A DNA stretch of 43,963 nucleotides, taken from the IMG/VR virus record IMGVR_UViG_3300027911_000026, positions 1-43,963 of that record; one strand, given 5' to 3'. Below are positions 1 through 43,963 of this stretch, in pieces. The notes under the pieces were generated by a model. The model saw nothing but the letters and a program-made list of their open reading frames with translations, had not been told where the DNA came from and made no database searches. The first letter of the stretch is position 1. Every line of letters starts with the position of its first letter. The DNA is from a virus. A program made the position numbers and the translations under genes.

Positions 1-60
1 GTATACACTAGGTACGGTCAATTATGACACTCATGCTGGAGTGTCGGGAAATTCCTATAT
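1..60. repeat. Left copy of the end repeat (partner 43904-43963)
   Basis: Bases 2-60 align without gaps to 43905-43963. I count eight differences in 59 positions, and all are synonymous in the fibre reading frame. This is best read as the overlap that closes the genome, taken from two variants in a population. A tandem C1q-like module with the same motif is the alternative. Confidence 0.7.
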
Positions 61-8485: not shown

Positions 8486-8937
8486 CTATACCTCAAAAAA
8501 AGAAAAGGTTGGTTGTTATCTCTAATAACCAAGTAATCTGCCCCCGCCCTTAACTTATCTAAATTGATAATTTTCTTTGTGGTCCTATTCTCCTCAAGCA
8601 CTGGGTAGCTGAAGTCCCAGTCCTTGTCAATACCAATTAAGGCATCAAAGTCAGTGTGGATATCTACTAGCTTCGTAGAATTAGCCACCGTAAAAGAACA
8701 ACGCTTGCCAGCATCAACGTGAGATCTATAAAAAGCATAAACACTCTTAAAAGAACTGTTCCTAGTTTTGAGTTCAATGGTGTAGTGCTCCCCATTCTTA
8801 ATTGCGTCTATGTCGTGTTTATAGCCCCTCATCATCCCTGAAAGGGGTACTCTCTTCGCATCAAAGCCTTTATCTTGTAGGTGGTGCACTAAAGATCTCT
8901 CTTCGCGACCACCTTTTGCTCTACTAAAACCGCCCAC
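8482..8937 (-). CDS. Holliday junction resolvase-like PD-(D/E)XK nuclease
   Basis: The 151-residue protein follows the Hjc/Hjr pattern: SRAKGGREERSLVHHLQDKG with a catalytic Glu in the first helix, KHDIDA (D42, D44), and TIELKTRN (E55, K57) about a dozen residues later. This family folds like restriction enzymes and cuts branched DNA. The C-terminal half is less typical and is followed by a beta hairpin. It lies between the zinc protein gene and the primase gene with short overlaps, in the replication operon. It would resolve recombination intermediates before packaging; a VRR-type nuclease is an alternative. Confidence 0.75.
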   Translation of the reverse strand: MGGFSRAKGGREERSLVHHLQDKGFDAKRVPLSGMMRGYKHDIDAIKNGEHYTIELKTRNSSFKSVYAFYRSHVDAGKRCSFTVANSTKLVDIHTDFDALIGIDKDWDFSYPVLEENRTTKKIINLDKLRAGADYLVIRDNNQPFLFLRYR

Positions 8938-9316
8938 TCGTCACCTCTAAATTAATAGCTACTGCACAACCCCAGTCCTCTGAATCCCACTCCTCAGTCA
9001 CAATAGGAGCACAGTCAGGATGAAAGTAGTACCTGTTGGCTCTAAGAGGTTTATTACACTTCTTACACATCCGGTGGGTAAGTGGGTTGGTGTCTACAGC
9101 CTCTCCGATAAGAGACATCTCCATACGTCTCTGCTCCTTCTTCTGAGCCTTCATTCTGCTTCTCATACTCGCCGCACTAGCGCAAGGGGGGCAGATTGTA
9201 GATTTCCATCTCTTACCACAAGATCCAACATAGCTATACCTACTTTTTAAACCACCCATTTTACTGTTTCTAATGCGTGCCTTGAGAACCCCGCACCGGA
9301 TACACTTAATTGCCAT
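8924..9316 (-). CDS. Small zinc-binding protein
   Basis: No family is recognised. I prefer the ATG at 9316, two bases after the stop of the gene upstream; a longer start at 9349 adds 11 residues. The product has Cys pairs CIRC near its start, a single Cys in SCGKRW, CPPC at about 42-45, and CKKC plus HPDC later, so it may hold two zinc sites. The middle is very basic (RSRMKAQKKEQRR), which suggests nucleic-acid binding. Gene overlap of 14 bases with the resolvase gene indicates co-translation. Confidence 0.6.
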   Translation of the reverse strand: MAIKCIRCGVLKARIRNSKMGGLKSRYSYVGSCGKRWKSTICPPCASAASMRSRMKAQKKEQRRMEMSLIGEAVDTNPLTHRMCKKCNKPLRANRYYFHPDCAPIVTEEWDSEDWGCAVAINLEVTSGRF

Positions 9317-9318
9317 CA

Positions 9319-9675
9319 CTAGAGAATCGCGTCGTTGAAGATCAGCCATCTGATTCTGTGCTCCCCTGTTTTTGTTTCGTATCGCGCTTTGATTGCAAAC
9401 CCAAGTCGTTCAAGCCTAATGAGGTCGGATTTATCAAGGCCCAGCTCACCAAGCCATCTAGGATCATTACCCAGAGTTTCACCTGCCTTATCCCTGGCAC
9501 ATAGAATATCCCGGTCTCTCTCATAAGCTGAAATCAACCTTTGAAATACCTTTTTCGTGGCCCCTTTCTTCGAAGGAACAGGTAGCTCCATCCCAGTTGA
9601 ACTCTGCTTCGAAGACCCTTCCCCCTCTGTTTTTAGCACAGAGGATATCAGCTTTTCCTTTTCTTGTTCCGTCAT
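9319..9675 (-). CDS. Hypothetical protein overlapping the helicase gene
   Basis: The 118-residue product has a charged, Ser-rich N-terminus and a more structured part from about residue 40 (a helix with RLISAYERDRDI, a segment DPRWLGELGLDKSDLIRLERLG resembling a small helical or winged-helix unit, and a C-terminal strand HRIRWLIFND). The start at 9675 has AGGAG four bases upstream, so the 155-base overlap with the helicase gene in another frame seems real; an internal ATG at 9591 would shorten the overlap to 71 bases. Possibly a helicase-partner or DNA-binding protein; function unknown. Confidence 0.6.
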   Translation of the reverse strand: MTEQEKEKLISSVLKTEGEGSSKQSSTGMELPVPSKKGATKKVFQRLISAYERDRDILCARDKAGETLGNDPRWLGELGLDKSDLIRLERLGFAIKARYETKTGEHRIRWLIFNDAIL

Positions 9676-19870: not shown

Positions 19871-20116
19871 CTATTTTATATTATTAAAGTAAATCATCAA
19901 CCTTAAAATATCAGGCCACAACTTCTGAATCCTTTGAATCAAAGCAATCTTATCCTCCCAGGTGAGTTGTTGATTGTGAATAATAGAGTGTAGCCCATTC
20001 TGAATCTGAGCTAAGCTATTATCCAGACTCCTCTTCCTGATTAGATTCATTTGATTAAGTTGATCCAAAGAGTTTCTCCCAGTCTGATAAGACCCTAGAT
20101 AGTTTAAAAGACTCAT
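19871..20116 (-). CDS. Hypothetical helical protein
   Basis: The product is mainly helical (LAQIQNGLHSIIHNQQLTWE and KIALIQRIQKLWPDILRLMI). The start is unclear: 20161, 20116 and 20050 are all ATG in frame; the last lies just past the glycosyltransferase stop, while the others overlap that gene in another frame by 107 and 62 bases. None has a strong ribosome site. Soluble or membrane-attached by its hydrophobic end; function unknown. Confidence 0.5.
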   Translation of the reverse strand: MSLLNYLGSYQTGRNSLDQLNQMNLIRKRSLDNSLAQIQNGLHSIIHNQQLTWEDKIALIQRIQKLWPDILRLMIYFNNIK

Positions 20117-21002
20117 TACCAACAACCGCAGGGCGAGAACCCCGACTCCAACTAATAACACGCTCTATCACCTTATCAACTTTATTACAATCAATCAACT
20201 GGGAAGGGTGAGAATCTAGTACTTCCTTTGCGGCCCCAAGGTTGTGTGTAAGTACTGGAACTCCCAAGGCATTAGCCTCGGCCATCACTAGCCCGAAAGT
20301 CTCTGGAAATACCTTATTGGGATAAAACAAGCAAAGAGAATCCCTAAGCACATCCATAGCTTCAGCGTGTGTGCAAGCCCCGATATCCCGAACTCCTTTA
20401 GGTATTGGCATATCTCTAAAGTAATAGCCAGGATTGAGACAAAACAGACTGAAAGCATCATCATAAGAATTAAGTTTACTAAAAATCTCATAAGCATAGT
20501 CTAGTCCTTTGTGGGGTGAGGAGAGCCACACCAATTTGTGATAATTTGTAGTAGCAGGTTTCAATTCTACACACACCGGATTGTATACGCGAGTCATCTT
20601 AAAGCCACCTTTGTAGCCCATAGCCTTAAACATCTCAGTAGTCTGCACCATAGCCCAGTTAGACACACACACCACATGACTCGTACGCGCTGCATTAATA
20701 GCTGCTATCTGTAGACCTAACTCGCGAGTCGGTAGGTCGTGACACCACAAGTATAGCTTTGCATCCGGCCACCGATCCCTGGCATACTGCAGATACTTAG
20801 GGTCTCTTAGTACCAGCACATGAGAGGGTCTGAACTCATCGAACTTGGACCCACGAGTGAGGAGGTGGACCTCATGTCCACGCTCTCTCAGCCCAGTAGT
20901 AACCCTACACACAGTGGCCTCAGTTCCACCCATAGGTTCTGTGAGTATTGATTCGGGTGTATAGTCTTTAGGGGCCACATAGTCTAGGATTGCTATTCTC
21001 AT
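20055..21002 (-). CDS. GT-B fold glycosyltransferase (GT4-like)
   Basis: The 315-residue protein has an N-terminal Rossmann half with GGTEATVCRVTTGLRERGHEV, and a C-terminal half with VWLSSPHKGLDYAYEIF, an acceptor/donor loop FPETFGLVMAEANALGVPVL that carries the E-x7-E motif, and GAAKEVLD. These fit retaining GT1/GT4 enzymes that use nucleotide sugars. There are no membrane segments. It lies in the accessory operon downstream of a lipoprotein gene. It could glycosylate the lipoprotein, the virion, or host surface sugars (changing the receptor), or protect phage DNA; none of these can be decided here. Confidence 0.85.
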   Translation of the reverse strand: MRIAILDYVAPKDYTPESILTEPMGGTEATVCRVTTGLRERGHEVHLLTRGSKFDEFRPSHVLVLRDPKYLQYARDRWPDAKLYLWCHDLPTRELGLQIAAINAARTSHVVCVSNWAMVQTTEMFKAMGYKGGFKMTRVYNPVCVELKPATTNYHKLVWLSSPHKGLDYAYEIFSKLNSYDDAFSLFCLNPGYYFRDMPIPKGVRDIGACTHAEAMDVLRDSLCLFYPNKVFPETFGLVMAEANALGVPVLTHNLGAAKEVLDSHPSQLIDCNKVDKVIERVISWSRGSRPAVVGNESFKLSRVLSDWEKLFGST

Positions 21003-21018
21003 TAGGATATCCTACCCT

Positions 21019-21177
21019 TCAGTGCAGAAGATGTAAAGGTGTTTTAGGTTCCACTTTACTTAACATCGTCCTAAGTAAAGTTAACTCCCAAGAGTCAAGC
21101 CACGAGTCGGGATTGTGCTTTAGAATCCATTCCTTGAGCGCAATTTCGTCTTTAATAGCCCTGATATAGTCACTCAT
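21019..21177 (-). CDS. 52-residue hypothetical protein
   Basis: The ATG overlaps the lipoprotein stop (ATGA), and the frame ends 16 bases before the glycosyltransferase start. The product is helical with three Trp (KEWILKHNPDSWLDSWELTL). No Cys and no membrane helix. The coupling supports it; function unknown. Confidence 0.55.
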   Translation of the reverse strand: MSDYIRAIKDEIALKEWILKHNPDSWLDSWELTLLRTMLSKVEPKTPLHLLH

Positions 21178-21533
21178 AGCTGCACCACCTGGCAATTAGT
21201 CCCCACTGTTAAGTTACATGAACAATTAATACCATTGCTCGAATAGTTCCCAGGCGGTAACTCAGCAAGGAACCCTCCCTGTTCACTGTAGACTCCGTAC
21301 AGCACGTTATCAATACATAGCCCGTACTCTGCGAAGGTTCCCGGGTAACTCGGTACGCAGGTATGACATAGCTCTACCACTGTCACTTGTGGCATTGGAG
21401 ACGATGCTGGCCCTGGCGGACCAACGATAGACTGGCCTGGCGCTCCACTTGGCCCAGGGATAGGTGTAGGTACGAACACAGTAGGGTTCCCACAACCAGC
21501 AAACAATAACATCAAGTAAATTAGTTTAGTCAT
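21174..21533 (-). CDS. Lipoprotein with collagen-like segment
   Basis: The 119-residue product (start at 21533, GAGGAG upstream) has a lipoprotein signal, IYLMLLFAGC, with the lipidated Cys at about 14. Just behind it is a Pro/Gly segment with collagen-like triplets (GPSGAPGQSIVGPPGP). The C-terminal part has seven Cys (CHTC, GLC, CSC, NC) in a small probably disulphide-linked beta domain. This is a surface or periplasmic protein of the infected cell. It is coded in the amidoligase operon and couples by overlap at both ends. A longer start at 21548 is possible but weaker. Confidence 0.7.
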   Translation of the reverse strand: MTKLIYLMLLFAGCGNPTVFVPTPIPGPSGAPGQSIVGPPGPASSPMPQVTVVELCHTCVPSYPGTFAEYGLCIDNVLYGVYSEQGGFLAELPPGNYSSNGINCSCNLTVGTNCQVVQL

Positions 21534-21699
21534 TATTTTTCTCCTCACCTTTTAAGTACTTGTATAGGGCACGTTCCAAGGTCTCATAGGTCCCGAATAC
21601 CAGAGTCCGGGGTCTAGGAAATATATCTTCAGGCACATCGTCGTAGATGAACTTGAGGATATACCCGTTATCAACTTCTGTTATCATATAAGACCTCAT
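21526..21699 (-). CDS. 57-residue hypothetical protein
   Basis: The ATG overlaps the previous stop (ATGA), and the TAA lies eight bases inside the lipoprotein gene. The product is a small beta/alpha protein (MITEVDNGYILKFIYDD and a helix ETLERALYKYLKG) with acidic and aromatic residues. Its C-terminal codons include the ribosome site of the next gene. No family is recognised. Confidence 0.55.
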   Translation of the reverse strand: MRSYMITEVDNGYILKFIYDDVPEDIFPRPRTLVFGTYETLERALYKYLKGEEKNND

Positions 21700-22205: not shown

Positions 22206-22268
22206 TTAAAGTCCTCCCATAATTAAACATACACCAAACACAATACAGAACAAACATACTAATAGCAT
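22206..22268 (-). CDS. Possible 20-residue membrane micropeptide
   Basis: The frame codes a short, almost fully hydrophobic peptide (MLLVCLFCIVFGVCLIMGGL) with three Cys. It starts ten bases inside the end of the previous small gene and stops two bases before the next gene; its last codons contain that gene's ribosome site. Its tight fit supports it, but at this length chance cannot be ruled out. Confidence 0.3.
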   Translation of the reverse strand: MLLVCLFCIVFGVCLIMGGL

Positions 22269-22420
22269 AGTCCACTCCGTTTCATTTTATTAAGACCACT
22301 AACCACGCGCCTCGCATCGGTTACACTATCCCATACGCTTTGAACATCACGGGTCGAGTCATTGACAATGTAGAACACGACCTTTACTGGAGTCTTATAC
22401 ACCATTCTGATTCTGTACAT
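22259..22420 (-). CDS. 53-residue basic hypothetical protein
   Basis: The ATG lies one base after the stop of the amidotransferase gene. The product has a beta strand VKVVFYIVND, a helix QSVWDSVTDARRVVSGLNKM and a basic end. No motif is recognised. Position directly after the amidotransferase suggests the same transcript. Confidence 0.5.
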   Translation of the reverse strand: MYRIRMVYKTPVKVVFYIVNDSTRDVQSVWDSVTDARRVVSGLNKMKRSGLCY

Positions 22421-22421
22421 A

Positions 22422-23378
22422 TCAACCTACCTTCTTAATACTATGCGGCTTTTTAGCTGCGGGTCTCTGTTTCTCAACATACTTCTTTGCCTCTGCGACC
22501 AGATCGACCGAACCGTCGTCATAGTCCGAGTATGGATAACGTTTCTCAGGTTGCCAGACTGGACCATCATCATTGAACTCATAGGCATCATAAGTCAACG
22601 ACGGGCTTGACTCATAGCCTAGCGAGCGGGTTACTAGTGCTTGATCAATCATGGCCTTTTTAGGACTAATAGAAGACTCATAGACTAATTCATTGCGCTC
22701 GAATACCAGATAACAGTTATCCCGCACTTTCTCGACTAAATCATGTTTCCACTTCATCGACTTACACACTCCCTGGATGATGCCTTCATTAGTAGCAAAC
22801 ATGAAACTACCGATTGTTTCTACCCAAGCCACAACCAATTGTGCCCGATCATCACGCAGTATGTGAGTCCGTCCATCTTCTTGGATGATCAAAGCATAGT
22901 ACCCTCCCACGTTCTCAACTATCCCGTCAATTCCTGACTTCTGCCAATACCGCAGACATATCTCGGTGTCATTTAGGGTCTCACACTTGATCTTGTCTAG
23001 ACTCATATCATTGACTACACCATTGTGAATCAGACTGACTCCCGCGTCTACATAAGGGTGTGTGCAAGGTAGACTGACATGATTAGTTGACATCCGACCG
23101 TGTGCCATGAGACTACCCATGACTTTCGACCGAACCCCGAACCCATTGGACCGCTTTTCCACGAATGATAGATCACGAGTCTTATTTTTAATACCGAGCC
23201 GAGATTTAAAACTGTGAGTTGCATCCAACGTCCTTTCACCAAAGACCCCTTTCTCACCTTGCACTGAATACCCGAACCCATCCTTATCCATTACGCAGAG
23301 GTATTGTCTTAAGGTGTCCATCAGTTTGTCCGTCACGTGAATACCACTAGCATCAGTTAACGCGAATAGTTTACACAT
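22422..23378 (-). CDS. Class II glutamine amidotransferase
   Basis: The 318-residue protein is an N-terminal-nucleophile amidotransferase: Cys2 follows the start Met, DKDGFGYSVQG, AHGRMSTN at 92-99, HNGVVND at 118-124, and NDTEICLRYW at 136-145 are the standard class II sites that bind and split glutamine. The C-terminal third is a charged extension without the synthase domain of PurF or GlmS. It would release ammonia from glutamine and hand it to a partner. The partner is most likely the amidoligase coded just upstream (one base apart), a pairing known from comparative work on phage amidoligases. The operon holds no purine or amino-sugar pathway gene. Confidence 0.85.
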   Translation of the reverse strand: MCKLFALTDASGIHVTDKLMDTLRQYLCVMDKDGFGYSVQGEKGVFGERTLDATHSFKSRLGIKNKTRDLSFVEKRSNGFGVRSKVMGSLMAHGRMSTNHVSLPCTHPYVDAGVSLIHNGVVNDMSLDKIKCETLNDTEICLRYWQKSGIDGIVENVGGYYALIIQEDGRTHILRDDRAQLVVAWVETIGSFMFATNEGIIQGVCKSMKWKHDLVEKVRDNCYLVFERNELVYESSISPKKAMIDQALVTRSLGYESSPSLTYDAYEFNDDGPVWQPEKRYPYSDYDDGSVDLVAEAKKYVEKQRPAAKKPHSIKKVG

Positions 23379-23379
23379 A

Positions 23380-24426
23380 TTATGCTACCTCACTTTCTTC
23401 ACTGGTCACAGTCTCGTTGTTTAGTTCAAAGGACGACGCCAAGGGAACATCGGTTTCAAGCTCGAACCCCTTGAAAGTCATGTACCTTTCCTTGCAGTAG
23501 TCATAGAGATCATTCGGACACTCTAATTCAGCGAGTACTTGGAAGAAGTGCGCTTCTTTGATCACCTTTTTGTGGTTCATGACTAAACGCATCAAGCGAA
23601 TCCAGTTAAATATTTTGGTGTAGTCTACCGTCCCGCTATGACCACGCACTTCGATAGTCTTATGTTTCCTGAACGCTGAAGCATTAATAAAGGCATACCT
23701 AGCTGTACTCTTGACTGTATTAAAGTCATTCACGCAATACTGGTTATTGCGGCGTGATTTAGGTAGCATCTTTTTCAAGTGAGGAACTATAGTACCTAGA
23801 CGTCTAGCATACACCCCGACCGCTCTAGCTTCATGATTACGCATATCGAAGTGGACATGTAGACCGCACGACTTGTTAACGAAAGCGCCACAATCAGACA
23901 ATGCTTGACAGACTAATTTCAATACTTCGGGCTTTTTTTCACTGAAAGTAACCACGATCTCACGTGGGACCTCACCACCGCATTGACAATCACCCTCATC
24001 ACAGTCACCACCGCAACTGTCGTCACCGGTACAGATTGACCCGTCATGCTTCACGCATACTGACTTACGGAGTCCTTGGTTCTTCATCTTGCGAATGAAA
24101 AGAGTCAGATCACTGTCGCAGGGAAACACACACTCAATCTCAACTGATAATGCCTCACCGATAGGAATAGCTTCTACGCTATTGTCATCATAGATCTCAC
24201 GAGACATACGATGAATCATGTCTTTAGACCATGACCCCTCATTACCCCATTGGGATAACTTATACTTCAAGGGGTCTTCGCTGTGAGACTTACTAAGTGA
24301 CCTAATGTCCCTAACCTTACCCCGCAGTAGATAACGCAATCTATAGTCTAGTTTCTTAGACTGACTCATTTCATATAGTGCGCGGTACTCAAGAGGTAAC
24401 TTAGCTGCAATGTATTGTTTGTTCAT
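23380..24426 (-). CDS. Putative amidoligase (COOH-NH2 ligase, glutamine synthetase-like fold)
   Basis: The 348-residue protein has the family marks of amidoligase_2: VEIE at 95-98, KHDGSI at 126-131, EIVVT at 156-160, CGLHVHFD at 187-194, RYAFINASAF at 243-252, and TIEVRGHSGT at 257-266 before FNWIRLM. The Glu, His and Arg residues would bind ATP-metal and the carboxyl substrate, giving an amide or peptide-like bond. A Cys-rich insert (C138, C142, C147, C149, with acidic residues) lies between the KHDGSI and EIV strands and could bind a metal. About 90 residues precede the core. It is followed by the glutamine amidotransferase gene. The substrate is unknown: cell wall, protein side chain or small peptide. 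Confidence 0.8.
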   Translation of the reverse strand: MNKQYIAAKLPLEYRALYEMSQSKKLDYRLRYLLRGKVRDIRSLSKSHSEDPLKYKLSQWGNEGSWSKDMIHRMSREIYDDNSVEAIPIGEALSVEIECVFPCDSDLTLFIRKMKNQGLRKSVCVKHDGSICTGDDSCGGDCDEGDCQCGGEVPREIVVTFSEKKPEVLKLVCQALSDCGAFVNKSCGLHVHFDMRNHEARAVGVYARRLGTIVPHLKKMLPKSRRNNQYCVNDFNTVKSTARYAFINASAFRKHKTIEVRGHSGTVDYTKIFNWIRLMRLVMNHKKVIKEAHFFQVLAELECPNDLYDYCKERYMTFKGFELETDVPLASSFELNNETVTSEESEVA

Positions 24427-24428
24427 AA

Positions 24429-24575
24429 TTAGTTCCTTCCCTTTTCAAACTTAGCTTCATTGTATAGCTCAATTATAGTTCCCACAACTATGACAGTAAA
24501 GACACACCCTAGCATAGCTAGAGTCACTGACATACATAGTGGTTCAGTACTCAAGAACATCTTAATAGCTTGCAT
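24429..24575 (-). CDS. 48-residue single-pass membrane protein
   Basis: The ATG shares a base with the stop of the gene upstream (TAATG). The peptide has one membrane helix (LAMLGCVFTVIVVGTIIEL) with a short charged cytoplasmic or periplasmic end (YNEAKFEKGRN). It ends two bases before the amidoligase gene, whose ribosome site GGGAAGGAA lies in its last codons. It may bring the amidoligase system to the membrane. Confidence 0.55.
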   Translation of the reverse strand: MQAIKMFLSTEPLCMSVTLAMLGCVFTVIVVGTIIELYNEAKFEKGRN

Positions 24576-24727
24576 TACTTGGTCCTTTCATTGTCGCCCT
24601 GGTAAGCATTACCAGTCATGATGTTACCGTTATAGAACATGAAGAGGATGAACCCTTCGGAGTCCATTAACCATTCTTCACCTACACCTGTCAAGTCTTG
24701 AATGTTATTTGATGTCTTAATAATCAT
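24575..24727 (-). CDS. 50-residue protein, first gene of the amidoligase operon
   Basis: I place the start at 24727, with AAGGGA upstream; a longer frame from 24781 adds a basic 18-residue piece. The product (NIQDLTGVGEEWLMDSEGFI and on) is acidic and small, with no Cys or membrane helix. It is the first gene after the non-coding region and thus likely the first in the leftward operon. Function unknown. Confidence 0.5.
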   Translation of the reverse strand: MIIKTSNNIQDLTGVGEEWLMDSEGFILFMFYNGNIMTGNAYQGDNERTK

Positions 24728-28542: not shown

Positions 28543-30764
28543 TGAGTAGTTCTACAGAATCGTCAGCCTCGTTTGACTTATCGATTGTAGACACTAGCGA
28601 TGTAGATACGCTTGCGTCTAAAATTGAGAGCCATTACAAGAAAGACACTACAGCCAAGAACCAGTTGTCCTATAACTGGGAACGAAACCACCTCTATCTT
28701 GATGGTAGACAGTGGATTGTATTTGATGGTTCTGTCGCTACTGGTGGCCTCTGGAAGCGTCTGGAAGTATCTCGTGCCAACGAGTTCATTCCTAAGCCTA
28801 CCACCAACTATCTCTTTGACGTGTATCAGACCCTTAAGTCTTATCTCATCAAGACTAAGCCCCGCTCCACAGTCTACCCCAATACTGAACTCTATCAAGA
28901 TAAGATGGCAGCAAAGATCGCTGATCTGTGTCTTGAAGCTAATTGGGCACGTTTAAAAGAACAGCAGAACTACGAATACGCTGCTACATGTATTTTGACC
29001 TATGGAACAGTCTTTAAGAAAGACTATTGGGACACCACAGAACTTGTGATGTCTAAAGTTCCACGCATGACCCAGATCCCTAAGGTTGACCCTAATACAG
29101 GACTAACCGTGGGCATGGAAGAAGTTCAAGCTACCGATCCAGAGACAGGCGATCCTCAGTATGATGAGATGCCTCTTGGTGATTGCAACACTGACGTAGT
29201 TGAGCCTTATCGTATCGCTCTTGATCCCATGGCTAACGACATCCATAAGGTGCGTTGGATCATGGAGTACTCTATCCAACCCCTACAGTGGATTAAAGAA
29301 GTTTATGGCAAAGACCCCGCTACAAACCCTGGTTACACAGGGCGCGTCGATGAAGTCAAAGAAGAAACCTCTCTCGCGGGGTCCCTCAAACGTTTTTATC
29401 AGCTTAAGCAGTCATCAGGGATTAAGCAAAGAGTTGAAGGAGCAGTTGCGCTCGGATCTACTGAGGAGCACCTCACAAACTCAGCAGTTGTCAAAGAATA
29501 TTATGAGCGCCCTTCACAAGCTAATCCAAATGGGCGCTTGGTCGTGGTTGCAAACGGAGTGCCACTATACGCTGGCGATTCCCCCTACGTTGGCCCGGAG
29601 CTTGGGGACTGGCACCCTTATAGCGAGTGCCGATGGGAAATCGTTCCTGGTAGATTTTGGGGTAAATCGCCTCTCGATAACGCCAGTGAGATCCAAAAAC
29701 AGATCAACTCCATCGACTCCGTAATCGTTCTTAATCGTAAGACGATGGCTATCCCACAGAAGCTTATTCCAATGTCTGCTGGGATTGTGCATGGTCAGTG
29801 GACAGGTCGTCCAGGCCAAGAGATCTTCTATAGGGATTCTACAGGTAATCCCCCGACAGTTGTGCCATCACACGGGGTAGATCCCACTGTGTTCCAAGAA
29901 CGTGCTCAGCGCGTTGAGGACATGAAGACTATTACTGGCGCTATTGATATTCTTAAGGGAGATAGACCAGAAGGTATTACCGCCGCTTCCGCTATTGAAA
30001 TGCTTTATGAAGTGGGTATGGGTAAACTCTTCCCAATCCTTGACCGCTGGAAAGCCTTTGTCGAGAACTCCCAGAAGAAGCAGCTTAAGATCATTTCTAA
30101 GTTCTATAAAGAACCCCGCCCAGACTTTATCCGCCTGTTGAGACAGAAGAACAAGGAACTCTCTGATGCTTCTATCTCTAAATTTATTGGCGCTGATCTT
30201 TATGATAACTGCAACGTAGTTGTCGAAGCCGGGTCCAATGTAACAAAGCTTCAGGCAGCGAAGAAACAGGAACTCCGTGAGGCAGCTCAATCTGGAGTTC
30301 TAAACTTGGCCGATCCCCGCAACAGACGCAAGTATCTTGAGGATATGGGTATCCAAGGGTACGATAGCGATATCGGGCCTGACCAGAAACGGCAGGAGTG
30401 GGAAAATTCTCTTCTGGAAGACATCCAAAACAACCCCAACAATAAACCCGTGGTCTTAGACTGGGACGTTCACGCGATTCATATTCAAGTTTTAGAGCAG
30501 AGGATGAAGGAGCCTTCATGGATGGAGCTACCTTTCGAAGTTCAACAGGCATTTATGGCACATCGCCAGCAGCATGAGCAAGCGGCACAGCAACAACAGA
30601 TGCTCGCTAACATGCAAGCTATGGCAGCAGGACAACCGCCCCCACCACCTCAAGGAGGCCCAGCCCCCATGAGAAAACAGCCTACAGGCAAAGGGGCCAC
30701 AAGTCAAGTTAAACAAGCTCTCTCAAGTGACATAACACAAGCCTCGGGGATGCCTACAAAATGA
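28542..30764 (+). CDS. Portal protein
   Basis: The 740-residue protein matches the size and order (just behind terL, before scaffold and capsid) of portal proteins of P22-like podoviruses. It has a Ser/Thr-rich start, a wing region around YNWERNHLYLDGRQW, a helical stem region (GMGKLFPILDRWKAFVENSQ) and a Gln-rich tail (AHRQQHEQAAQQQQMLANMQ and PPPPPQGG) that may form the barrel in the head. It would form a 12-subunit ring as gateway for DNA and bind terminase and tail. Four-base overlap with the next gene. The P22-like subgroup is a guess from length. Confidence 0.85.
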   Translation: MSSSTESSASFDLSIVDTSDVDTLASKIESHYKKDTTAKNQLSYNWERNHLYLDGRQWIVFDGSVATGGLWKRLEVSRANEFIPKPTTNYLFDVYQTLKSYLIKTKPRSTVYPNTELYQDKMAAKIADLCLEANWARLKEQQNYEYAATCILTYGTVFKKDYWDTTELVMSKVPRMTQIPKVDPNTGLTVGMEEVQATDPETGDPQYDEMPLGDCNTDVVEPYRIALDPMANDIHKVRWIMEYSIQPLQWIKEVYGKDPATNPGYTGRVDEVKEETSLAGSLKRFYQLKQSSGIKQRVEGAVALGSTEEHLTNSAVVKEYYERPSQANPNGRLVVVANGVPLYAGDSPYVGPELGDWHPYSECRWEIVPGRFWGKSPLDNASEIQKQINSIDSVIVLNRKTMAIPQKLIPMSAGIVHGQWTGRPGQEIFYRDSTGNPPTVVPSHGVDPTVFQERAQRVEDMKTITGAIDILKGDRPEGITAASAIEMLYEVGMGKLFPILDRWKAFVENSQKKQLKIISKFYKEPRPDFIRLLRQKNKELSDASISKFIGADLYDNCNVVVEAGSNVTKLQAAKKQELREAAQSGVLNLADPRNRRKYLEDMGIQGYDSDIGPDQKRQEWENSLLEDIQNNPNNKPVVLDWDVHAIHIQVLEQRMKEPSWMELPFEVQQAFMAHRQQHEQAAQQQQMLANMQAMAAGQPPPPPQGGPAPMRKQPTGKGATSQVKQALSSDITQASGMPTK

Positions 30765-31603
30765 CTAAAAAGAAGATTTACTTAGCATGGTTGAGTACTG
30801 GAAAACGCGAAGACATCCATATTTACCTGTTAAGAGATCTTCAGAAACGCTATGGAGATAAAGTAGAACTTGTACTTCCTGATCAATGCTGCTGGAGAAC
30901 GTTTCACGATGCGGCGAGAAACGCGGCTGTTGATAACTTCCTCGCTTCTGACTGCGATGTACTATGGTTCTTGGATTCTGATGTTTGTCCTCCCGCTCAC
31001 ATACTAGAGCTAGTAACTAATGAGTGGGATAAGTGGCAGGTAGCAGGAGCACCATATCCAATCTTCATGCCCGTACCTGGTCGTGAAGAGCACAGCATCC
31101 TGTTTACTGCTTACAAAGGGGTTTTAAATGACCCCGATCAACCTGGGATCTATATGGCCGATGTGCCACAGTCCGGGGCTGAGATGGTGGATGCTCTTGC
31201 AACGGGTTGTCTCTTTATTAAAAGAGAAGTGTTTGCAAAGCTTGAAAAGCCCTACTTTGAATTTAAGTTTGATCACGAGTCGCGTAGGATTAAAGAAGGC
31301 GAAGATCTCGGGTTTGCTCTGAAGCTCTCAAGACTTGGTATTCAGTTCTACTGTGATTATGGCATGGTCTGTAAGCATTATAAGACGCTAGATCTTCTTG
31401 ATATGAATAATTACGCTATTGAGATGGCTAACTACAAAGTCCAAGAATATCACAAGAGCGCAATGGCTGACGTGGGGCAGGTAATTGCCGCAGCTAAAGA
31501 AAAATACTTCCGTGATGGGTTTGCTGCAGGAGTAGAAGCAGCTAAAGGACCGCAGAGAAGTAAAGCGGGATTGATCCTGCCACAAAGTTTAAATACGCGC
31601 TAA
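30761..31603 (+). CDS. GT-A fold glycosyltransferase in the head gene cluster
   Basis: The 280-residue protein has the GT2-type layout: a basic start KKKIYLAWLSTGKRED, AARNAAVDNFLASDCDVLWF, the metal motif LDSDVCPP (DxD), a nucleotide pocket with ATGCLFIKREVF and the late acceptor motif EGEDLGFALKLSRLG (ED). There is no membrane helix. It overlaps the portal gene by four bases and lies directly before the scaffold, an unusual place. It could add sugar to virion proteins. Its C-terminal 60 residues are a charged helix with Ala, probably not enzymatic. Confidence 0.8.
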   Translation: MTKKKIYLAWLSTGKREDIHIYLLRDLQKRYGDKVELVLPDQCCWRTFHDAARNAAVDNFLASDCDVLWFLDSDVCPPAHILELVTNEWDKWQVAGAPYPIFMPVPGREEHSILFTAYKGVLNDPDQPGIYMADVPQSGAEMVDALATGCLFIKREVFAKLEKPYFEFKFDHESRRIKEGEDLGFALKLSRLGIQFYCDYGMVCKHYKTLDLLDMNNYAIEMANYKVQEYHKSAMADVGQVIAAAKEKYFRDGFAAGVEAAKGPQRSKAGLILPQSLNTR

Positions 31604-35692: not shown

Positions 35693-36502
35693 ATGGCTAC
35701 ACTCCAAAGCCCTACACTAGGCAAACTAATTCTAAACGTAAGGAATCTACTGGGCCAACCAAACCCGGTTAATTCTACGTGGACTGACGCTGAGCTTAAA
35801 GAGTACATCAATGAAGCTGTGCGTATTTACTTTGCCGACGTGGTTAAGAACATGGAAGGTTACTTCACGGTCACTACTGACCCAAATAATAACCTCTCTT
35901 ATGTGGCTAACCAGGAGACCGTGGCTCTTCCTTCTGACTGCTTCCAAGTCAAAGCCCTCTACATTCAACGCAGTAATGGTTGGGAGATCCTTGAGTACCG
36001 TAATGACGTTACCAACGGTTTCCTAACCAACACTGGTTCTGGTGGATCTAACACCTACTCCCCCATGTATTACTTCATGGGTAATAACCTGGTGCTCCAC
36101 CCCACCCCAAATCTCGATGGAGCTAACCAGCTTCGTTTAGACTATATCCAGATGCCTGACCAGATGATCAACGGTGGTGACACCATGACCAATCAGGTCT
36201 CTCCTGTATTTAAGCAGCTTATCGAGATGTATGCGGTCTATAAAGCCAAGATCAAGCAGAGCATGGTCGTTGGTACAGATCTGACAGCTATCGCTAAAGA
36301 TAACTTAGAACAGATTGCTAAGAACTTCAAAGATACTATTACCCCCCGCTCAGCATACCCTGAGTTCGTTGTCCCTTACAACCCCGAGGGTTACTGGGTT
36401 ATGTTCCCGTTTTTATTATCAAAACACGCACTATTGACAGGTAACCCCGAATTATTGCAAAATATACTTAACCATGTTAAACACCTGTGTAATTTGTTTT
36501 AA
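35693..36502 (+). CDS. Head-tail adaptor protein, C-terminus altered at HNH junction
   Basis: The 269-residue protein has the pattern of podovirus adaptors (gp4-like): LGKLILNVRNLLGQP, WTDAELKEYINEAVRIYFAD helix, a beta part (VALPSDCFQVKALYIQ, MYYFMGNNLVLHPTP, RLDYIQMPDQM), and a late helix QLIEMYAVYKAKIKQ. It would sit under the portal and join it to the tail. After YNPEGYWV the last 35 residues (FPFLLSKHALLTGNPELLQN and on) change to a different, AT-rich composition and run into the HNH gene that starts at 36474. The end may have been replaced when that gene inserted. Confidence 0.75.
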   Translation: MATLQSPTLGKLILNVRNLLGQPNPVNSTWTDAELKEYINEAVRIYFADVVKNMEGYFTVTTDPNNNLSYVANQETVALPSDCFQVKALYIQRSNGWEILEYRNDVTNGFLTNTGSGGSNTYSPMYYFMGNNLVLHPTPNLDGANQLRLDYIQMPDQMINGGDTMTNQVSPVFKQLIEMYAVYKAKIKQSMVVGTDLTAIAKDNLEQIAKNFKDTITPRSAYPEFVVPYNPEGYWVMFPFLLSKHALLTGNPELLQNILNHVKHLCNLF

Positions 36503-36911
36503 AGATTATCAAAAACACGGCAAAAGCCACAAAGACAAGTGTAACCCCTGTTACCAAAAAGAGTATTACAGAAAAGATAAGAAGCGTAGATTGCAATTAA
36601 ACCAAGAGTGGCGTAAAGCCAACCCAGAAAAAAGAGCAGAGCAGTCTTGGAGAGAACACCGTAAAAGGCGTTATGGTCTTTCTGAAGAGGCTTTTATGGC
36701 CATATATCATGCCCAGGGCGGTAAATGTGATATGTGCGGGGTTTCTAAAGAAGCCTACAGTATCCGAGGTCTTTGTGTAGACCACGACCATAAAACAGGG
36801 AAAGTCCGTGGATTACTCTGTACTGGATGTAATACAGGTATTGGTTCTCTAAAAGAAGATATTGAACTCCTGCTTAAAGCGGTGGAGTACTTAAGAAAGC
36901 ATAAGTCTTAA
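36474..36911 (+). CDS. HNH endonuclease VII-like free-standing nuclease
   Basis: The 145-residue protein has CVIC and CNPC in the N-terminal zinc unit, a basic helix, then CDMCG, LCVDHDHKTGKVRGLLCTGCN and a final helix LLLKAVEYLRKHK. It is the fourth HNH nuclease in the window and the only one in the virion module. It overlaps the adaptor end by 29 bases and the following gene by one base (TAATG). Its core is close to that of the copy at 5431 (both have VDHDHKTGKVRGLLC or IDHDHKTGKVRGLLC). Confidence 0.85.
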   Translation: MLNTCVICFKDYQKHGKSHKDKCNPCYQKEYYRKDKKRRLQLNQEWRKANPEKRAEQSWREHRKRRYGLSEEAFMAIYHAQGGKCDMCGVSKEAYSIRGLCVDHDHKTGKVRGLLCTGCNTGIGSLKEDIELLLKAVEYLRKHKS

Positions 36912-41589: not shown

Positions 41590-43963
41590 TGTCCGTTTCA
41601 CTCTGCACCGTCACAGGCACCCTCCTTGATCTTGGTGGTAATCCCCTAAGCGGCGTTACCGTACGCTACACAGGCACAGGTGCTTTTATCGATGGCAATG
41701 GTAATACCATCTCTTCTACCGAAGTAAGCACCACCACCGCCTCGAACGGTACCTGGTCCCTTGCTTGCGTGCAGCAATCTGCTGGCGACATCATCATTGC
41801 TTATCCTCAAGACGCGATTAACTCTACCATCGACTATTACTTTGCGGTGATTATCCCCGCTGCAAGTACAGCTCTGTTCTCTTCTATCTGGGTAGATTCC
41901 CCAAACAACGCCCAAGCACAGAACCTCCCTTTCACCTTCGCTAATATCTCTGGAACTCTGTCTTTGGTACAGATGCCACAGCTCCCTTCAGGCCAGATCT
42001 ACATCGGGAGTGCTGGTGGAGCAACTACCGAAGTAACTCCTTCTGGAGATGCTACGATATCTCCTACCGGAGTCATTACTCTTAACACAGTCCCTATTGC
42101 TAAGGGTGGCACTGGACAGGTTACGCAGCAAACAGCTATTAATGCTCTTACTGGCACACAGTCGGCTGGTAAGGTCCTTAGATCTGATGGCACAAACGCT
42201 ACCCTATCTTCTATACAAGCTGGTGACTTACCCGATCTTTCTGCCACCTATGTCACACAATCTGAGGTTGGGGCTAATAATGGCGTAGCCTCGCTTAACT
42301 CGTCTGGTAAGGTTCCTGCAACGCAGCTCCCTTCTGTGGTTATGGAGTACCAAGGCAACTGGAACCCCTCTACCAACTCCCCAACACTTGCTGATGGTAC
42401 AGGTACTAATGGGTATACCTACTGGTGCTCTACCGCACACGCGGGTACGGTTTCTGGTCTTAATAATGCCTCGATGGTTAATTTCGAGATCGGGGATCTT
42501 GTAATCTACAATGCTACTCTTGGGCAATATGAGCTAAGCACTCCTGCTGCGGGTGTATCTTCTGTTAATGGTGCTCAAGGTGCTGTAGTTATTACCGCCG
42601 ACCAGCTTCTTCCTCTTACTAGTAAAGGCGACATCTTAATAGAGTCTTCTGCAGGAGTCTCGGGTAGACTCCCCTTAGGCACCACCAATCAAGTACTGGC
42701 TGTAGGGGCCTCTGGCCTTCCAGTCTGGTCATCTACTGCAGGAGGGGGTGGTGGAGGTAGCGCCAAGAATTACCTATCTGCTGTTACAACCTCAAACGGT
42801 ACTAATACAGGCAACGGTAATTTTGAGTTAGGCACTACAACGGGTTGGCAGGTTTCTCAGACCACAATCACCCCCACCGCTGGCTACTATCTTCCAACTA
42901 CCACGAAGTCTCCTGGGACTGCTTTCAATTCTTCTAACGGCTCTGGCACTCCTTTAGCTACAGTAAGCATAGTTTCTTCCGGTCAATTAGCCGGGACATA
43001 TTCTGCTGCTTTTGCTTCTGCTGGTCCAGCTAGCACTGGGGATATGTTAATCTCCAATGCTTTCAATATTGATACCGAAGATCAAGCAAAGATGATGCAG
43101 ATCAGTTTTGCTTATAATTTACATTCTGGAAACGTCGCTGCCATTCCAGGCAATTCTTCAAATACGTTTGCTATTTACGTATATGATGTAACTGCTGGAG
43201 CGTGGATTCAGCCTCAAGGCGTGTATAACATCCTGCAATCAAGCGGAGTTGGAAAAGCAACCGCTACGTTCCAAACCACCTCCACCAGTACTCAATACCA
43301 ATTGGCGATTGTTACGCTTAATAGCTTAACTGCTGGTTATTCTCTCTATGTTGACGACTTTGTTGTAGGCCCTCAAACCGCTCCAATGGGTCCGGCGATG
43401 ACGGATTGGGTTCCTTACACACCAACTATCACTGGATTTGGGACCACTTCAGGAGTTAGTTTTTTCAGTAGGCGCATTGGAGACACACTTCAAATTCAAG
43501 GCGTTTTTACCCCCGGAACGGCAACCGCAGTACAGGCTCAAATTAGTCTTCCTTCGTTGACGATAGATTCTACCAAAGTTTCTACTTCAAATATGGTTGT
43601 TGGTTATTATCAGCAAGGGTATGGCACTACAACTTATTTTGGACAAGGGCAACTGATTGCGGGCGGAGGCAATACCTACCTCCAAATGGGAACAGCCTCC
43701 TCATCTACCGGCGGAAATTCTCCCGCTAATGGTAACGTTGTCTCTGGAGGATCTGGATTTATAATCAGCGTTGAGGCGACAGGAATCCCAATTTCTGGCT
43801 GGTCCTCAAACTCATCTCAAAGCTCGGATACTGATACGCGTGTGTGTGGTGTTAGTTTTTCAACTACTAACCAATCCTTCGCTAATGGCTCAACTCCTGT
43901 TCAATACACTTTAGGTACGGTTAATTATGACACTCACGCTGGGGTATCTGGAAATTCCTATAT
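41589..43963 (+). CDS. Tail fibre, N-terminal and middle part (gene runs off the right edge)
   Basis: The frame is open from the ATG at 41589 (TAATG with the nozzle gene) to the window end, 791 codons with no stop. The first part is a carboxypeptidase-regulatory-like beta domain (CTVTGTLLDLGGNPLSGVTV); next come fibre repeats with IAKGGTGQVTQQTAINALTG and AGDLPDL, a G6S linker near codon 387, a TGNGNFELGTTTGW carbohydrate-binding-like beta domain, DWVPYTPTITGFGTTSGVSF, and then the start of a C1q-like module. The last residues equal the first of the window. Joined to 1-721 it gives about 1,010 residues. It likely determines host range. Confidence 0.8.
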   Translation, partial: MSVSLCTVTGTLLDLGGNPLSGVTVRYTGTGAFIDGNGNTISSTEVSTTTASNGTWSLACVQQSAGDIIIAYPQDAINSTIDYYFAVIIPAASTALFSSIWVDSPNNAQAQNLPFTFANISGTLSLVQMPQLPSGQIYIGSAGGATTEVTPSGDATISPTGVITLNTVPIAKGGTGQVTQQTAINALTGTQSAGKVLRSDGTNATLSSIQAGDLPDLSATYVTQSEVGANNGVASLNSSGKVPATQLPSVVMEYQGNWNPSTNSPTLADGTGTNGYTYWCSTAHAGTVSGLNNASMVNFEIGDLVIYNATLGQYELSTPAAGVSSVNGAQGAVVITADQLLPLTSKGDILIESSAGVSGRLPLGTTNQVLAVGASGLPVWSSTAGGGGGGSAKNYLSAVTTSNGTNTGNGNFELGTTTGWQVSQTTITPTAGYYLPTTTKSPGTAFNSSNGSGTPLATVSIVSSGQLAGTYSAAFASAGPASTGDMLISNAFNIDTEDQAKMMQISFAYNLHSGNVAAIPGNSSNTFAIYVYDVTAGAWIQPQGVYNILQSSGVGKATATFQTTSTSTQYQLAIVTLNSLTAGYSLYVDDFVVGPQTAPMGPAMTDWVPYTPTITGFGTTSGVSFFSRRIGDTLQIQGVFTPGTATAVQAQISLPSLTIDSTKVSTSNMVVGYYQQGYGTTTYFGQGQLIAGGGNTYLQMGTASSSTGGNSPANGNVVSGGSGFIISVEATGIPISGWSSNSSQSSDTDTRVCGVSFSTTNQSFANGSTPVQYTLGTVNYDTHAGVSGNSY
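43904..43963. repeat. Right copy of the end repeat (partner 1-60)
   Basis: Same reading frame and same 19-20 residues as at the left end, with only synonymous changes (including a TTA/CTA Leu codon). It lies at the very end of the window, which is what a circular assembly opened inside a variable gene would give. Confidence 0.7.

Follow-up and report, generated by a model that had tools for sequence, protein, structure and literature searches.

What do an amidoligase and a glutamine amidotransferase (GATase), encoded one base apart in a virus, do together during infection? Annotations of phage genes from both families go back more than ten years, their role has only been guessed at, and a cassette with up to five enzymes is hard to dissect. 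A lineage of just two catalytic subunits, with active sites that do not vary among very diverse phages, offers an easier route to the substrate. We analyzed such a pair in the virus record IMGVR_UViG_3300027911_000026; the window is the whole stretch of 43,963 nt, positions 1 to 43,963. Judging from sequence, we propose, with a probability of about 0.6, that the pair makes up a two-subunit, glutamine-dependent amide synthetase that would act on a host or phage molecule and is probably made early. The features needed for the argument follow, in their minus-strand order:

24578..24727, minus strand: 50-aa ORF, first in the leftward block, overlapping the next start codon (TAATG)
24429..24575, minus strand: 48-aa single-pass membrane ORF (Kyte-Doolittle hydropathy), upstream of the amidoligase and co-directional with it; a candidate partner only
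23380..24426, minus strand: Amidoligase_2, a glutamine-synthetase-fold ligase of 348 aa (PF12224, E 2.3e-20)
23977..24042, minus strand: Cys-rich insert of the amidoligase, residues ~129-150 (comparison of 145 amidoligases)
23379..23379, minus strand: one-base spacer between the amidoligase stop and the GATase start (TAA-T-ATG; sequence)
22422..23378, minus strand: class II (Ntn) glutamine amidotransferase/glutaminase of 318 aa (PF13522, E 2.9e-7)
22259..22420, minus strand: 53-aa ORF downstream of the GATase; membership in the pair system unsupported

A preliminary description of this DNA had treated positions 22259-24727 as one operon encoding a membrane-linked modification system. Its quoted motifs and gene order are confirmed in the sequence, as are the one-base spacing, the small ORFs, and a single hydrophobic segment in the 48-aa protein; the TAA-T-ATG junction is consistent with co-translation of amidoligase and GATase. 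A single operon is plausible for the block: the genes share a strand, the TAATG overlap, and ribosome-binding-like sites, but a promoter scan returned promoter-like matches only at chance level. The span as drawn does contain both enzymes, but it also takes in the 50-aa ORF, which matches no family, and the 53-aa ORF, which has no match in Pfam or PHROGs and no counterpart in other pair loci, and neither of these has evidence of membership. The pair stands at the head of a leftward replication block (polymerase, helicase, Rad52-like protein), with the structural genes on the opposite strand, and this position suggests that it is expressed early.

The amidoligase clears the curated cut-off of PF12224 by a wide span (73.9 bits against 22) and matches PHROG 2443 at E 1e-20. 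Behind an N-terminal helical extension of ~85 aa, it carries catalytic-type residues E96, E98, D128, S130, E156, H190, H192, R225, Y244, E259, and R261, among which E-x-E, H-x-H, and E-x-R form what we take to be the classical glutamine-synthetase set. AlphaFold2 models of both proteins were built as single chains from alignments of the collected loci. The amidoligase model (pLDDT 76) superposes on human glutamine synthetase (9nlr) with a VIA Z of 15.2 and 2.8 Å over 173 residues, using model residues 88-288; Foldseek ranks YbdK and glutamine synthetase highest, though neither scores more than modestly, and a PDB sequence-profile search with the amidoligase gave no real match. The protein thus has both the glutamine-synthetase fold and the E-x-E, E, H-x-H, R, E-x-R series, and its identification in the preliminary description holds at the level of family and of fold. 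The Cys-rich insert sits between two active-site strands, in a region where pLDDT falls below 50 (residues 137-151). A comparable insert is present in only three of the 145 motif-bearing amidoligases, those of the window, L008 (3786-4973), and L039 (4603-5985), and its cysteines could bind metal or form disulfides.

The GATase also passes its family threshold (PF13522, GATase_6; 31 bits against a curated cut-off of 27). Its key residues are the C2 nucleophile, R95, T98, H118-N119-G120, and D137, so that the N-terminal Cys after Met, the glutamine-binding Arg and Asp, and the oxyanion Asn-Gly are all present. Searched with a family profile, GlmS (4amv) scores E 4.9e-21, and its nucleophile Cys, R..T, HNG, and D line up with those of the family; the assignment to class II made in the preliminary description is borne out. 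The model (pLDDT 72) matches the glutaminase domain of GlmS (1xff) at E 7.8e-11, with PurF and EgtC also among the matches. Even the short GATases of Bacteroidales loci (170-200 aa) retain the MC start and the HFR.AT, HNG, and TDSE motifs, and across the aligned pair loci, the window included, the catalytic residues of both enzymes are invariant in 62 of 62.

The match to EgtC brings in a different chemistry. EgtA and EgtC of ergothioneine synthesis resemble the window pair in coupling a glutamine-synthetase-like ligase to a class II Ntn enzyme, and EgtC removes glutamate and does not feed ammonia. By analogy, the amidoligase might couple an amine to the carboxylate of glutamate or of a peptide, with the Ntn enzyme later removing glutamate from the product. 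EgtC (4zfl) is a good match of the GATase model, though not the best (TM by target 0.66), the amidoligase fold also matches YbdK, a gamma-glutamylcysteine-ligase-type enzyme, and GGCT, which cleaves gamma-glutamyl amines, is encoded near related amidoligases. Glutaminases and the EgtC class have the glutamine-pocket residues in common. However, the GATase is only 13-16% identical to EgtC in sequence, and GlmS and PurF are its nearest matches by sequence profile. No GGCT turned up in the window or in the records of its nearest relatives, and a stoichiometric complex would fit genes that are so tightly spaced, with the ligase almost always first. We therefore consider an EgtA/EgtC-like pathway unlikely.

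In the amide-synthetase reading, the GATase would hydrolyze glutamine with its N-terminal Cys and, because it belongs to the class II GATase family, would pass the ammonia to the amidoligase; the latter would use ATP and metal, in the manner of glutamine synthetase, to activate a carboxylate and convert it, in the infected cell, to a primary amide on a molecule of the host or the phage. We infer that the two proteins form a physical complex, that ammonia is channelled within it, and that the reaction runs toward the amide. MurT-GatD, which combines a Mur ligase with a class I GATase, has folds unrelated to the GS-fold ligase and class II Ntn GATase of the window. In principle the two systems are alike: MurT-GatD also unites an ATP-using ligase and a separate glutaminase in one operon, and it amidates peptidoglycan (PMC3267633).

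A role in nitrogen metabolism has been proposed for cassette-type genes, in the part of the source used here (PMC10945688), and by extension the pair might raise pools of glutamine, glutamate, or amino acids with no specific target. Yet a glutaminase feeding a glutamine-making GS-fold enzyme would run a futile cycle, the other genes of the nitrogen-metabolism set were not found in the window, and the same part of the source reports no test of single genes. Such an auxiliary role strikes us as highly improbable.

Whether the two enzymes work jointly can be judged from their distribution. The phage records held no close relative of the window pair; single-protein queries against viral contigs, like a genome-contig search with the two nearest GATases, found nothing, and relatives surfaced only with alignments, of which a seven-sequence amidoligase alignment was too diverse to serve as a query. 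A GATase alignment matched 28 viral loci. Among the 25 two-gene loci found in this way, which include three alignment seeds, the amidoligase lies directly upstream of the GATase in 22, often with overlapping stop and start codons. The nearest relative, L008, shares 37% and 44-46% identity with the two window proteins and has the same gene order; L039 is the second nearest. A query with four amidoligases alone recovered at least 80 viral loci and at least 80 loci in bacterial genomes. In loci with 1 kb or more of sequence downstream, a GATase adjoined the amidoligase in 58 of 71 viral loci and in 17 of 75 bacterial-genome loci among the matches listed. In three loci (L157, L188, and L190), two amidoligase-like genes flank one GATase.

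The two proteins have also diverged together: their distance matrices correlate at r 0.886 against a permutation maximum of 0.142, a co-divergence that is partly shared phage descent. That the two act jointly is supported by their adjacency, tight order, co-divergence, and unvarying active sites, and since catalytic residues are kept and the two genes remain neighbors across very diverse phages, a joint amide-forming system is the best reading. Two findings weigh against the synthetase. Many relatives of the amidoligase have no GATase neighbor (58 of the 75 bacterial-genome loci listed, and those of Porphyromonas and Bacillus phages), which implies that the ligase can work alone or with another amine; and EgtC, a hydrolase of gamma-glutamyl bonds, is likewise similar to the GATase model.

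The surroundings of the pair are less informative. Beside the pairs lies a mixture of genes (helicase, exonuclease, lysis, terminase, portal), the commonest neighbor family occurs in only 8 of 63 distinct pair loci, and the neighbors of the window pair match none of the neighbors in other pair loci; the context therefore does not name a target. The nearest terminase, capsid, and polymerase relatives of the window phage are less than 30% identical and come from many hosts. In some loci of Bacteroidales and Porphyromonas, the setting differs from that of the window: an amidoligase, with or without a GATase, lies among portal, scaffold-like, and capsid-like genes (L044 2924-8952, L005 702-5585). 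Solo or paired amidoligases between portal and other structural genes, and terminase or portal among some pair neighbors, would fit a pair that acts on head or tail proteins in some phages. Against this stand the mixture of replication, lysis, and packaging genes around the pairs and, in the window, the position at the head of the replication block on the strand opposite to the structural genes, so that we give modification of virion proteins very little weight.

How does the amide synthetase proposed here relate to the larger phage cassettes? In published phages of LUZ24, tf, RIO-1, and phiEco32 type, the amidoligase and GATase come together with genes for COOH-NH2 ligase, ATP-grasp, and GGCT-like proteins (PMC3890496, PMC3517423, PMC5498523). 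We took the cassette as amidoligase (PF12224), GATase (PF13522), COOH-NH2 ligase (PF14395), ATP-grasp, and GGCT. The two enzyme families of the window are also those of the cassette, where their genes mostly follow one another as in the window and adjoin or overlap; in the window a one-base gap separates the amidoligase from the class II GATase. Published cassettes of the UFV-P2, tf, and RIO-1 types lie in an early or replication region (PMC3890496, PMC3517423, PMC5498523; loci L002 and L004). Nearly all of the loci found with the GATase alignment have cassette genes beyond the pair; the window, L008, and L039 showed none. Over the whole 43,963-base window and the L008 and L039 records, all three of which may be fragments, we did not find the COOH-NH2 ligase (the PF14395 search had no certain positive control, but a separate ligase profile does find this ligase in cassette loci), ATP-grasp (controls L125 and L161 positive), or GGCT (PF06094; control L003 record positive). 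A full phiEco32-type cassette elsewhere in the window is thereby rejected.

Both trees, which are unrooted, place the window proteins outside the cassette clade. In the amidoligase tree, the window groups with L008 and L039 (92/85), and this clade, together with the solo amidoligases of Porphyromonas, Bacillus, and C75C1, is split from 21 cassette amidoligases (100/99); in the GATase tree, a branch of 96/97 separates the cassette GATases from all pair-type GATases. Among the matches listed, 54 viral amidoligase-found loci, the window counted, have only the pair nearby; five have the pair with ATP-grasp, one has ATP-grasp and COOH-NH2 ligase in addition to the pair, one has GGCT in addition, and 18 have the amidoligase alone. 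From the 54 pair-only loci and the tree splits, we conclude that, as far as sequences go, the two-gene form is a lineage of its own and not one damaged cassette; the pair would be a stand-alone two-gene relative of the phiEco32/LUZ24-type cassette. Solo amidoligases are known from Porphyromonas, Bacillus, and Arthrobacter phages and prophages (PHROG 2443); the window enzyme groups with those of Porphyromonas and Bacillus, whose loci, unlike the window, have no class II GATase beside the amidoligase. The general type has already been described in phages, and what differs is the separate, mostly two-gene lineage.

The preliminary description had suggested cell-wall peptide, a protein, or a peptide product as the target. 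Our leading guess is a peptide carboxylate of cell-wall precursors, and it is a tentative one. Cell-wall modification against superinfection has been predicted for the phiEco32-type cassette, according to the parts of two papers that cite the prediction (Iyer 2009, cited in PMC10580990, PMC11318856). A broader picture, which we hold to be doubtful, is of a widespread two-gene enzyme, with descent apart from the cassette, that would form primary amides on a macromolecule for which phage amidation is not known, such as proteins of the virion or peptides of the host wall. In this picture ligase and glutaminase would depend strictly on each other, and in the window clade the Cys-rich insert would add metal or redox control. 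A peptide product was rejected, as no precursor-like gene is conserved with the pair. DNA hypermodification was likewise set aside: the larger window ORFs scanned include no thymidylate-synthase-like, dioxygenase, or 7-deazaguanine family.

The membrane link fared worst. The only hydrophobic segment of the 48-aa protein reaches a Kyte-Doolittle value of 2.54 over 19 residues. The protein has no homolog in the records of L008 and L039, the two nearest relatives, and no match among 50,697 phage records. Very short proteins diverge fast, so homology could miss a partner; an enrichment count is independent of homology. In 6 of 77 loci the amidoligase start has a small hydrophobic ORF ending close to it; the background, taken over all small ORFs, is 101 of 1374, so there is no enrichment. 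We therefore rejected a small membrane protein as a conserved component, and when the operon is compared among relatives, the small genes beside the pair vary at random, an outcome that the preliminary description had itself named as speaking against its proposal. The other outcomes it had named, a missing fold, missing catalytic residues, or a pair that is always apart, did not occur. The pair has no conserved third partner.

Several other features of the window deserve mention. At 21174-21548 (minus strand), a small protein that resembles a lipoprotein combines collagen-like GPxG repeats with a C-terminal domain, and a longer collagen-like lipoprotein lies near the L008 pair (8733-9614); a sequence search at E 1 did not link the two, and their presence may hint at a shared host group. 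Three scattered genes of the endonuclease VII family (PF02945; 5431-6018 and 13909-14382, minus strand; 36474-36911, plus strand) are probably mobile homing-type endonucleases. A glycosyltransferase in the replication block (20055-21002, minus strand) and a glycosyltransferase-like protein among the structural genes (30761-31603, plus strand) make host-surface or virion glycosylation possible. A trypsin-like protease with a hydrophobic N-terminus (PF13365; 16646-17449, plus strand) adjoins a phage lysozyme (17937-18392, plus strand), and the two form a plus-strand island within the minus-strand block. Finally, the ends of the window (1-60 and 43900-43963) encode the same ~20 residues in diverged DNA, and the open frame continues from one end into the other; the contig may be circular, with its closure inside a repetitive tail-fibre gene.
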